Positions 9,909 through 39,542 of a stretch of 39,542 bases of DNA are shown in pieces (the first letter of the stretch is position 1; each line of letters begins with the position of its first letter). Location: assembly GCA_944325535.1 (NCBI GenBank), contig CALVAL010000012.1:1-39542 (forward strand), given 5' to 3'. Position numbers and translations under genes: made by a program. The stretch comes from Candidatus Gastranaerophilales bacterium (GTDB lineage Bacteria; Cyanobacteriota; Vampirovibrionia; Gastranaerophilales; Gastranaerophilaceae). The notes under the pieces are model-generated. The model was not told the origin of the DNA, did no database searches, and worked only from the letters and a program-made list of their open reading frames with translations.

Positions 9909-9937
9909 ATTCTATCATATTTTATTTATAGAGTCAA
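9909..9937 (-). promoter_or_regulatory. strong promoter of the 107-aa protein gene
   Basis: Minus strand: TTGACT, 17-bp spacer, TAGAAT, with TG one base before the -10. It begins 1 nt after the T-run of the serS terminator. One of the best promoter matches in the window. Confidence 0.75.
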
Positions 9938-9938
9938 T

Positions 9939-9960
9939 AAAAAAGAGGGCTTATGCCCTC
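9939..9960 (-). terminator. serS intrinsic terminator
   Basis: Minus strand: GAGGGC-ATAA-GCCCTC followed by TTTTTT, 4 nt after the serS stop codon. Confidence 0.9.
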
Positions 9961-9964
9961 TTTT

Positions 9965-11227
9965 TTATATTTTATCAAATCCTGTGTATTTCCTTAAAAC
10001 TTCAGGAATAATAATTGTTCCATCTTCTTGTTGGAAATTCTCTACAATAGCCGCGAAAGTTCTTCCAACCGCCAAGCCTGAACCGTTTAGAGTATGAACG
10101 AAACGAACTTTTCCGTCTTTATCACGATATCTTATGTTTGCTCTTCTAGCTTGGTAATCTCCAAAATTAGAGCAGCTAGAAATTTCTTTATAAGTATTAT
10201 AAGAAGGTAGCCATACTTCTAAGTCAAAACATTTATTTGCACTAAATCCGATATCAGCTGTGCATAATGCAACTCTTCTATATGGAAGACCTAATTTTTC
10301 TAAGCAGATTTCAGCGTTTCTTGTTAATTTTTCATGCTCTTCTTTGCTTGTCTCTGGAGTTGTTAATTTTACCATTTCTACTTTATTGAATTGGTGTACT
10401 CTAATTAGACCTCTTGTATCTTTACCAGCAGAGCCTGCTTCACGTCTAAAACAAGGTGTATATGCTGTCATATATTTAGGTAAATCATCTTCACTAAGAA
10501 TTTCACCTGAGTAGATATTTGTAACAGGAACTTCTGCTGTTGGTATTAAATACAAGTCTTCATCTACGCACTTATACATATCTTCTGCAAATTTAGGCAA
10601 CTGTCCTGTTCCAGTCATAGTTGCAGCGTTTGCCATAAATGGAGGTAGGATTTCTTCATATCCGTGCTCTTCTGTATGTAAATCTAAAAAGAATTGTATA
10701 ATTGCACGTTCTAATCTTGCACCTTTTCCACGATATAGAGTGAATCTTGATTGAGAAATTTTTACACCTCTTTCAAAATCTACAATACCTTTTTCTTCGC
10801 ATAAATCCCAATGGGCTTTTGGAGTGAATGAAAATTTAGTTGGCTCACCCCAAGTACTTACTGTAGGATTATCATCTTCTGATTGACCTATTGGAGTAGT
10901 CTCATCAGGAATATTTGGAGTTCTTAAAAGTAAATCTCTTTGAGCGTTGTCTAATTCAACTTGCTTTTCTTCTAATTCTTTTATTTCATCGCCTAATTTT
11001 CTAACATCTTCTTGGATAGCGTCAGTATTTTCTCCATTCTTTTTCATCATCCCGATTTTTTGTGATTCGTTTTTTCTTTTTGCTCTTAATTCATCAGCTT
11101 GAGCTTGAATTTTTCTTCTTTCAGCATCTATTTCTATCACCTTATCAATAGATAATTCTGGATTTCTTCTTTTTAATAGCTCATTAATTTTTTCAGGATT
11201 TTCTCTGATTAATTTAATATCTAACAT
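9965..11227 (-). CDS. serS: serine-tRNA ligase
   Basis: Charges tRNA-Ser (and tRNA-Sec where present). A class II synthetase of 420 aa, the normal length. The N-terminal antiparallel coiled coil that grips the tRNA long arm spans about residues 25-100 (rich in K/E/R/Q). The catalytic domain has TAEVPVTN (serine pocket), motif 2 [19 protein letters not shown], and motif 3 [13 protein letters not shown] near the C-terminus. I chose the ATG of [10 protein letters not shown] because GAGGTGG precedes it; a GTG 3 codons upstream is part of that Shine-Dalgarno. No T-box is visible in the roughly 30-nt leader. Confidence 0.96.
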
Positions 11228-38704: not shown

Positions 38705-39178
38705 ATGTTTTTAAAGCCTGACTATAACTTAAAAAATATTTATGAAATAGATTTTCAAGAATTGAAAACTAAAGGCATAAAATGCCTTATGTTTGATTTA
38801 GATAGTACAGTTATGGTCTCTAAATCTGCAAATTTTTTACCGGAGACTGTGGAATGGTTTAATACATTCCTAAAAGATTTTGAAGTAGCAATAATTTCTA
38901 ATAATAAAAGTAAAGAATATATTGAAAATGCTTCTAAAATAGCTCCTTGTAGAGTAATAGGTCATGCAAATAAGCCAAATCCTAAAGTGATGAAAGAATA
39001 TCTTGAATCTATTAGTATAGAACCCTCTTGTGCTGTAATGATTGGTGATAGACCACTTACAGATATACTTGCAGGAAAACTATTGGGTTGTAAGACTATT
39101 TTAGTAGGCTCAATTAATCCAAATGAGAATTTGCCAACGAAATTTGTAAGAGCTCTTGAAAGAAGCACTATAAGATAA
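38705..39178 (+). CDS. YqeG-family HAD phosphatase
   Basis: A 157-residue HAD-superfamily (IIIA) phosphatase. Motif I FDLDSTVM has Asp31 and Asp33. SNNKSKEYI is motif II, KPNPKVM supplies the motif III Lys, and MIGDRPLTDILAG is motif IV. The start LKPDYNLKNIYEID fits YqeG. Plant and cyanobacterial relatives dephosphorylate phosphatidylglycerophosphate, so a role in phosphatidylglycerol synthesis is plausible. The ATG at 38705 has TGGAG upstream; an earlier in-frame ATG (7 codons) does not. The 90-bp gap before it holds no recognisable gene. Confidence 0.88.
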   Translation: MFLKPDYNLKNIYEIDFQELKTKGIKCLMFDLDSTVMVSKSANFLPETVEWFNTFLKDFEVAIISNNKSKEYIENASKIAPCRVIGHANKPNPKVMKEYLESISIEPSCAVMIGDRPLTDILAGKLLGCKTILVGSINPNENLPTKFVRALERSTIR

Positions 39179-39542
39179 TTTTTTTAGTTTTGAGATTTTT
39201 TGAATTATTAAAAAATGATTAATTTTATCATGATGTATTAAATTATAATTAATAATAAAAAAGTACCCCAAAGAATAAAATAGAAAAGTTGATAAGTTGA
39301 GTAGTTTATAAGTTTAGAAGAAATTTTAGACTTTTTACTATACAAACTTATGCAAAAATTGAATATTAGAGTTCCCTTCCCCAATAGGGGAAGGCTAGGA
39401 TGGGGATAAAAATTAAGTTTAGAAGTTAAGAAAAAGTTATTATCTTTTTCTTAAAAAAATCCCCACAAAAATTAAATAGTTTAGAAAAAAATTTTTCACC
39501 TCAATCAATATTGATTAGAGGAACAAAAGACTTCTAAATTGA
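39179..39542. repeat. non-coding region dense in inverted repeats (MITE-like element candidate)
   Basis: No ORF of note on either strand. It contains CCTTCCCC-AATA-GGGGAAGG (39375-39394). An outer TGGGGAT/ATCCCCA pair (39401-39407 with 39459-39465) encloses TTAAGAAAAAG-7 nt-CTTTTTCTTAA (39426-39454). Another hairpin, CCTC-AATCAATATTGATT-AGAGG, is at 39499-39521. AGTTTAGAA occurs three times (39311, 39416, 39478), and a near-inverse CTTCTAAATT at 39531. Nested stems and bordering repeats suggest a non-autonomous mobile or intergenic palindromic element, cut by the window end. Confidence 0.5.

Follow-up and report, generated by a model that had tools for sequence, protein, structure and literature searches.

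Palindromic element at the end of the contig

The window, i.e. the whole stretch of 39,542 nt that was analysed, is the complete contig C12 of a Gastranaerophilales genome (G000; 1.99 Mb, 114 contigs), so that the end of the window is also the end of the contig. There a YqeG-like HAD phosphatase gene is followed by an AT-rich stretch, a tract of degenerate direct repeats and a palindrome-rich element (Table 1). Three hairpins had been described in the sequence-only reading, and re-inspection of the sequence located all of them: the GC-rich hairpin CCTTCCCC-AATA-GGGGAAGG, an AT-rich hairpin nested between TGGGGAT and ATCCCCA, and a third one close to the contig end. The three direct copies of AGTTTAGAA (39311, 39416 and 39478) are likewise present, with no further copy in the window, and the near-inverse motif CTTCTAAATT is located at 39531. 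Using a filter for GC-rich hairpins (stem of at least 7, loop of 3-8), only two are found in the window, 39375-39394 and 9937-9968; when its last 232 bases were shuffled 2000 times as mononucleotides, no such hairpin arose.

The folds were evaluated as single-stranded DNA against 200 dinucleotide shuffles each. All three are just moderately above chance, with z = -1.9 for the GC-rich hairpin (6 shuffles equally good), -3.2 for the AT-rich hairpin (1) and -2.0 for the third hairpin (10). The recurrence of copies described below is better evidence against chance than these folding scores.

Table 1. Features at the right end of the window (positions of the window).
Feature	Position	Strand	Basis and remarks
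YqeG-like HAD phosphatase gene	38711-39178	+	Sequence comparison; left neighbour, anchor for the comparison of relatives
AT-rich stretch, putatively promoter-like	39207-39284	+	39207-39256 common to C49
Degenerate octamer-like direct repeats AAGTTGAT, AAGTTTAG and variants	39286-39320	+	Sequence inspection; include the first AGTTTAGAA
Repeated unit of ~250 bases	39294-39542	+	Copy alignments; common to C49 and C11, C97 shares 39416-39542
Core, predicted triplex-type REP	39375-39405	+	Stem arms 39375-39382 (pyrimidine) and 39387-39394 (purine) around the loop AATA; CTA as linker; third strand GGATGGGG, in mirror order, at 39398-39405
TGGGGAT/ATCCCCA pair around the AT-rich hairpin	39401-39465	+	TGGGGAT 39401-39407, overlapping the third strand of the core; hairpin 39426-39454; ATCCCCA 39459-39465
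Third hairpin, CCTCAATCAATATTGATTAGAGG	39499-39521	+	Fold test
CTTCTAAATTGA	39531-39542	+	A second REP of triplex type, inverted, comes next in C11 and C97; C12 stops before that point

The core as a predicted intrastrand triplex repeat

The sequence-only reading had missed the sequence GGATGGGG behind the GC-rich hairpin. It mirrors the purine arm base for base in 8 of 8 triads, applying the rule that G reads G and that either A or T reads A. The core thereby comprises an 8-bp stem of GC-rich pyrimidine and purine arms, a loop of 4, the linker CTA and a mirror third strand. BoxC/PIT/TM repeats are described as built alike: in the hairpin the pyrimidine arm comes first and is joined to the purine arm by a short loop, and after a linker of three bases there follows a purine third strand in mirror order (accessible part of PMC4666352). 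Since arms, linker and third strand match this published design, the core is, as predicted from its sequence, an intrastrand triplex repeat of the BoxC/PIT/TM class.

The BoxC/PIT/TM_ECO repeats share with the core the layout, the presence in multiple copies and the frequent arrangement as inverted pairs of two types. They differ in the arm (CCCTCNCCC as opposed to CCTTCCCC) and in the linker, which is TTA or CCG for the two E. coli types and CTA here. Moreover TM_ECO sites are described as always intergenic, whereas relatives of the window repeat, which itself is intergenic, also occur in frame within genes. The same excerpted source states that most TM_ECO sites are assignable to a particular locus across 56 E. 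coli genomes, which argues for little recent movement in E. coli. It reports no triplex in vivo for these repeats, and according to its authors activities giving mobility were never found around TM_ECO sites (PMC4666352, accessible part). Unlike the repeats described there, those of the window type are tied to a DUF559 gene (see below). CGTC REPs and Rickettsia RPEs, for which the available text names no known transposase, are palindromes able to sit in frame in genes (PMC3733652). Unlike in these, a CGTC tag was not found beside the window hairpin, which is flanked by GAGTTC and CTAGGATGGGG; neither was GTAG (or GTGG).

Copies in the genome and absence in relatives

Copies elsewhere in the genome had been expected for a REP-like element, and they are found. 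Near-full copies lie on C49 (96% identity) and C11 (94%), a half copy on C97 (83%), and the core pattern has 21 matches with up to 3 mismatches at varied places of the genome, while the reversed pattern has 0. Among 57 genomes the core pattern is present in 13, all of the same genus; genome G026 contains 14 matches of a variant related to the core repeat. The element is neither single-copy nor conserved in its place: yqeG was detected in 55 of 58 genomes, 30 loci were retrieved, and the element is absent behind the gene in all 25 relatives whose downstream sequence was inspected. In the other 56 genomes none of the matches listed to the element is longer than ~77 bases. C49 stops at the same position of the element as C12, which suggests that both contigs break off there because the sequence beyond is repeated.

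Other places in the genome and in the genus show tracts similar to 39284-39328, which contains the first AGTTTAGAA. The AGTTTAGAA-bearing motifs seem to be a dispersed octamer-like repeat in their own right, to which the other two copies would belong by resemblance only. Degenerate octamer-like repeats of this kind (AAGTTTAT, AAGTTGAT, AAGTTTAG) are dispersed in intergenic stretches of the genus, for example at 39286-39320 of the window and near 52210 of C1.

Many DUF559 genes are flanked by predicted triplex repeats

The sequence-only reading had advised looking for a matching transposase. Our data point to a DUF559 nuclease instead of a classical transposase. DUF559 (PF04480, Pfam) has matches in 28 of 57 genomes including G000, where the gene on C20 is preceded by three and followed by two repeats of the window family. 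At this locus one enzyme gene thus stands between repeats of its own type, as in a REPtron. Among 135 genes in the evaluated stretches of this genome, the C20 DUF559 gene is the only one with hairpins both upstream and downstream within 300 bases; small ORFs of 100-200 aa from the window, the same genome's stretches and the yqeG and prmA loci show hairpins on both sides in 0 of 115 cases.

The survey of DUF559 comprised 169 loci, reduced to 143 by deduplication, which merged the C20 locus into its near-identical counterpart of G022. Of these, 123 belong to Gastranaerophilales and 113 of them offer at least 250 bases on both sides. As controls served 97 other genes of the same loci. An inverted repeat between the upstream and downstream flank scores above all 97 controls (maximum 29) in 94 of the 113 loci. 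GC-rich hairpins occur on both sides in 70/113 loci as compared to 0/97 controls, and on at least one side in 93/113 as compared to 14/97. One or the other, i.e. the inverted repeat above controls or hairpins on both sides, applies to 100 loci and neither to 13. Among the first 20 loci, 15 had flank hairpins (12 on both sides, 3 on one side) and 5 had none.

A third strand fits by at least 85% in 181 of 265 DUF559 flank hairpins and perfectly in 153, from 80 of the 123 loci; with shuffled tails the respective numbers are 9 and 0. The linkers are most commonly TTA, TTG, CTG and CTA, and CCG is also present. By these sequence criteria the flank hairpins appear to be largely triplex repeats. The copy in the window has no adjoining DUF559 gene, which counts against a role of DUF559 in its spread. 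A further DUF559 gene of G000 (C21:21278-21591) is split over two frames and apparently broken; a triplex-type repeat lies upstream of it.

Repeat type and DUF559 lineage

For 112 loci, forming 6206 pairs below 90% identity, the identity of the DUF559 proteins was compared with the similarity of the flank repeats. The rank correlation is 0.28 with a maximum of 0.14 in 500 permutations, and for 89 of the 112 loci the nearest DUF559 protein from another genome falls in the top tenth by repeat similarity. Pairs from the same genome score below 44 in 15 of 18 cases, hence a shared genome alone does not make the repeats alike. The repeat type tends to follow the DUF559 lineage, and shared descent of loci and flanks contributes to this covariation by inflating it. 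The repeat of the window reaches its best scores, 53 and 51, with DUF559 flanks of other genomes and, using a slightly shorter query, 44 with the C20 flank of its own genome; the median over loci is 21.

Within the genus DUF559 matches, some of them weak and partial, are present in 12 of 13 genomes with the core pattern versus 10 of 21 without it (p = 0.011). The profile search of the 57 genomes found no DUF559 match in G026 despite its 14 variant repeats.

Repeat-DUF559-repeat units in frame within housekeeping genes

Open frames of at least 250 aa enclose 31 of the 113 DUF559 loci. In most of these frames, as judged by eye, DUF559 adjoins peptides coded by the repeats, e.g. ppleggskslisgwg or tpppnplpqgage. 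Some units are internal and some C-terminal, as in HydE. Including two frames from other cyanobacteria, 11 of 33 received NCBIfam names: PrmA, HydF (2), HydE (2), MurD, PriA, IspE, TIGR03960, a RecB/PcrA-like helicase and an MpaA-like amidase. In-frame REPs as such are already known from the GTAG and CGTC families (PMC3733652, available text).

PrmA illustrates the presence and absence of such units. The gene was found in 55 of 58 genomes of the genus, and 15 of 30 retrieved loci were displayed. PrmA of G022 (91% identical over the query) is uninterrupted with 296 aa. In G000, G066, G020, G080 and G016 the frames have at least 460 aa, with an insert in the same loop, and the insert of G066 carries a visibly different DUF559. 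The frame of G000 (C61, 1590-3140 of the locus) encodes 512 aa with a DUF559 domain between repeat-coded peptides. G019 (C3:53200-54800) exhibits an in-frame insert consisting of the repeat only, YPPLEGGAKSPISGWG, at another place of the protein. A single frame with similarity to IspE and two DUF559 domains is seen on C3 of G111 (334-2064 of the locus).

DUF559 loci beyond Gastranaerophilales

Within the phylum DUF559 matches occur in 240 of 386 sampled genomes. From other cyanobacteria 20 loci were taken, 18 of which had enough flank; 14 of these 18 exceed a score of 29, the maximum of the Gastranaerophilales controls, which was used for comparison as only 2 control genes came from these cyanobacteria. 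A third strand fits in 39 of 43 of their flank hairpins.

A protein search of a plasmid collection that includes chromosome-sized records gave 50 matching records, and 14 of 40 listed were taken for diversity. Strong repeats on both sides are found in 8 of the 14: two Sphingomonas, two Deinococcus, Pseudanabaena, Novosphingobium, Sphingobium and Neisseria gonorrhoeae, where the flank repeats are direct copies. Shinella, Sinorhizobium and Photobacterium have GC-rich hairpins on one side only, and Azospirillum has one hairpin of a different kind. At the locus of E. coli KE47 no hairpin passed the filter, and TM-like motifs are recognisable by eye behind the gene; a flank hairpin was not found in Thermoactinomyces. 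Of these 14 loci, which come from other phyla and plasmids, six show a fitting third strand. In Deinococcus psychrotolerans the DUF559 gene lies between paaD and paaZ, in Sphingomonas between NAD(P) transhydrogenase genes.

YcjD of E. coli K-12 MG1655 is a DUF559 protein as well (PF04480, E = 1.4e-49). The published table lists TM_ECO number 9 at 1 351 239-1 351 204 (PMC4666352, accessible part), 167 bases behind ycjD in the gap to fabI. Degraded look-alikes accompany it there (1206-1407 of the retrieved locus). In the profile searches, the list of genomes with a DUF559 match did not include the E. coli strain that served as one of 14 controls.

Predicted nuclease fold and proposed mechanism

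The C20 protein matches PF04480 with E = 3.7e-42, and its structure is predicted with a pLDDT of 92. With high confidence the model has the predicted fold of 3hrl, a Neisseria gonorrhoeae protein matched by the DUF559 profile at 1e-32, and of the homing endonuclease I-Bth0305I (3r3p; profile E = 6.7e-4, Foldseek 1.8e-5), and more weakly that of Vsr (Foldseek 2e-2; Vsr model 4e-4, a weak match below the model cut-off). The protein would thus share fold and sequence core with the EDxHD enzymes I-Bth0305I and Vsr, the match to the latter being weak. PDB profile matches from the third onwards, with E = 0.05 and worse, were set aside as chance. Two reports mention DUF559 in their accessible text: one assigns it to the EDxHD homing endonuclease family (PMC9403480), the other to a putative repair protein that is Vsr-like (PMC12907096). 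Unlike EDxHD homing endonucleases, the C20 gene lies between triplex repeats, and an intron or intein setting was not seen.

We propose, with a probability of roughly 55%, that the core belongs to the triplex class as a non-autonomous palindromic repeat and that a DUF559 nuclease, for which the C20 gene stands here, has helped it to spread. The enzyme would recognise its cognate repeat, whether in duplex form or extruded as hairpin or triplex, and would nick or cut in the linker or close to it. A second site with the repeat might then serve as template for repair, by which the repeat is copied into the break, sometimes together with the nuclease gene between two repeats. Because the repeats can be read without stop codons, insertions inside genes could survive. 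Recognition, cutting and copying by DUF559 are steps that we infer. Against the proposal count, besides the position of the window copy, the 13 of 113 loci with neither flank feature, the variant repeats of G026 with no DUF559 match, the one-sided or missing hairpins at several loci of other phyla and plasmids, the covariation inflated by shared descent and, for E. coli, the TM_ECO sites that mostly keep to a particular locus. Vsr cuts at CTWGG. The junction of linker and following GG in these repeats, YTRGG, resembles this target, which suggests an enzyme that might read the junction.

The strongest competing reading regards DUF559 as a homing-type parasite that cuts the repeats and places its own gene between two of them, while the repeats spread otherwise, by gene conversion or replication slippage; the DUF559 linkage would then be a consequence of repeat dispersal and not its cause. 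The fold shared with I-Bth0305I and the position of the gene between inverted repeats agree with it, as do the different DUF559 types within the same PrmA loop and the repeats far outnumbering DUF559 genes and occurring without them in G026. However, it leaves the spread of the repeats unexplained, gives no account of only 1 of 13 pattern-bearing genus genomes lacking DUF559, and has to face the in-frame repeat without gene in PrmA of G019. We consider it rather unlikely.

Coming back to DUF559 as the enzyme that spreads the repeats, its role may reach further. Since repeats of this kind adjoin DUF559 genes in several bacterial groups, DUF559 is a candidate for the enzyme spreading triplex repeats. 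Tentatively, and with the balance slightly against so wide a claim, it could be the missing mobility enzyme of BoxC/PIT/TM repeats across bacteria and form a second kind of REPtron, made of a Vsr/EDxHD nuclease and a triple-helix repeat in place of an HUH transposase and a GTAG hairpin, that colonises the frames of essential genes as stop-free inserts. As in the GTAG REP/RAYT REPtrons, short dispersed palindromes flank one enzyme gene and in-frame repeats are known; in contrast to these, whose enzyme is an HUH transposase, the enzyme here is of Vsr/EDxHD type, and the repeats lack the GTAG tag and have a third strand (PMC3733652 and PMC6006769, accessible parts).

Our literature search, with most subscription papers and bioRxiv outside its scope, found no paper joining DUF559 or ycjD with triplex repeats. 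The pairing of DUF559 and triplex repeats appears to be new, the window element being a further member of a known repeat class. If true, it would suggest a function for DUF559 and explain the repeat-coded peptides within essential proteins. Tying a small, widespread enzyme family to the repeats turns the open question of their mobility into one that can be tested at the bench, with ycjD of E. coli K-12.

The ~250-base unit and other candidate movers

In C11 and C97 a second repeat of triplex type, inverted, comes after the repeated unit, in C97 one more, and then a PAPS-reductase-family gene; C43 starts with the sequence that continues the unit in C97. Moreover ~39207-39281 in the left flank resembles the leader of the family member on C76. 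These observations fit a reading of the stretch as a mere regulatory leader, duplicated together with PAPS-reductase-family genes, with the palindromes as transcription or RNA signals. This may apply to the ~250-base unit in its entirety. As an account of the core repeat it is improbable: the 21 core-pattern matches at varied places of the genome stand against five members of the gene family (few in relatives, with matches in 8 of 57 genomes), and the sequences upstream of the members on C76 and C17 do not contain the unit. The unit was probably multiplied by a separate process, within the duplicated leader of PAPS-reductase-family genes.

PAPS-reductase-family genes and a PLD-like gene with an N-terminal signal-like stretch are arranged tail to tail, overlapping or nearly so, on C11 (46-2070 of the locus), C97, C43 and C76 and in relatives. 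The PLD gene lies within the retrieved stretch in 11 of 13 strong PAPS-reductase loci. This module was considered as a mobile element itself and kept as context only, its ends not being delimited.

Of the interpretation given in the sequence-only reading, the REP-like, multi-copy part is supported and the MITE part is not. A MITE spanning all of the ~250 bases, with AGTTTAGAA and CTTCTAAATT as ends and a lost transposase, would agree with the near-inverse motifs at both ends and the several near-identical copies, but homology runs across both supposed borders: it begins at 39294 in C11 and, with one gap, at 39207 in C49, both left of the first AGTTTAGAA and at varying positions, and C11 and C97 have sequence in common beyond the last base of the window. 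Terminal inverted repeats were accordingly not found at these borders, nor was a target-site duplication (C11 is the only copy with both flanks) or a clean empty site for the unit, and octamer tracts of a similar kind occur without the element. We therefore reject the MITE, which has very little probability left.

Equally little speaks for an ordinary REP mobilised by RAYT: Y1_Tnp genes are present in 26 of 57 genomes, with one in G000, and the layout is REP/BIME-like, but GTAG is absent beside the window hairpin, and the 19 of 25 retrieved RAYT loci that were checked have a different hairpin type or none. The repeat type of the window was not seen at any of these 19 loci; 6 of them contain filter-passing hairpins (8 in total) of the type GTTGGG...CCCAAC, and a third strand fits in 0 of 8. 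Two separate enzyme/repeat systems hence seem to exist in the genus. Its RAYT-like genes have a hairpin of their own, GTTGGGC/G...C/GCCCAAC, ~50 bases upstream.
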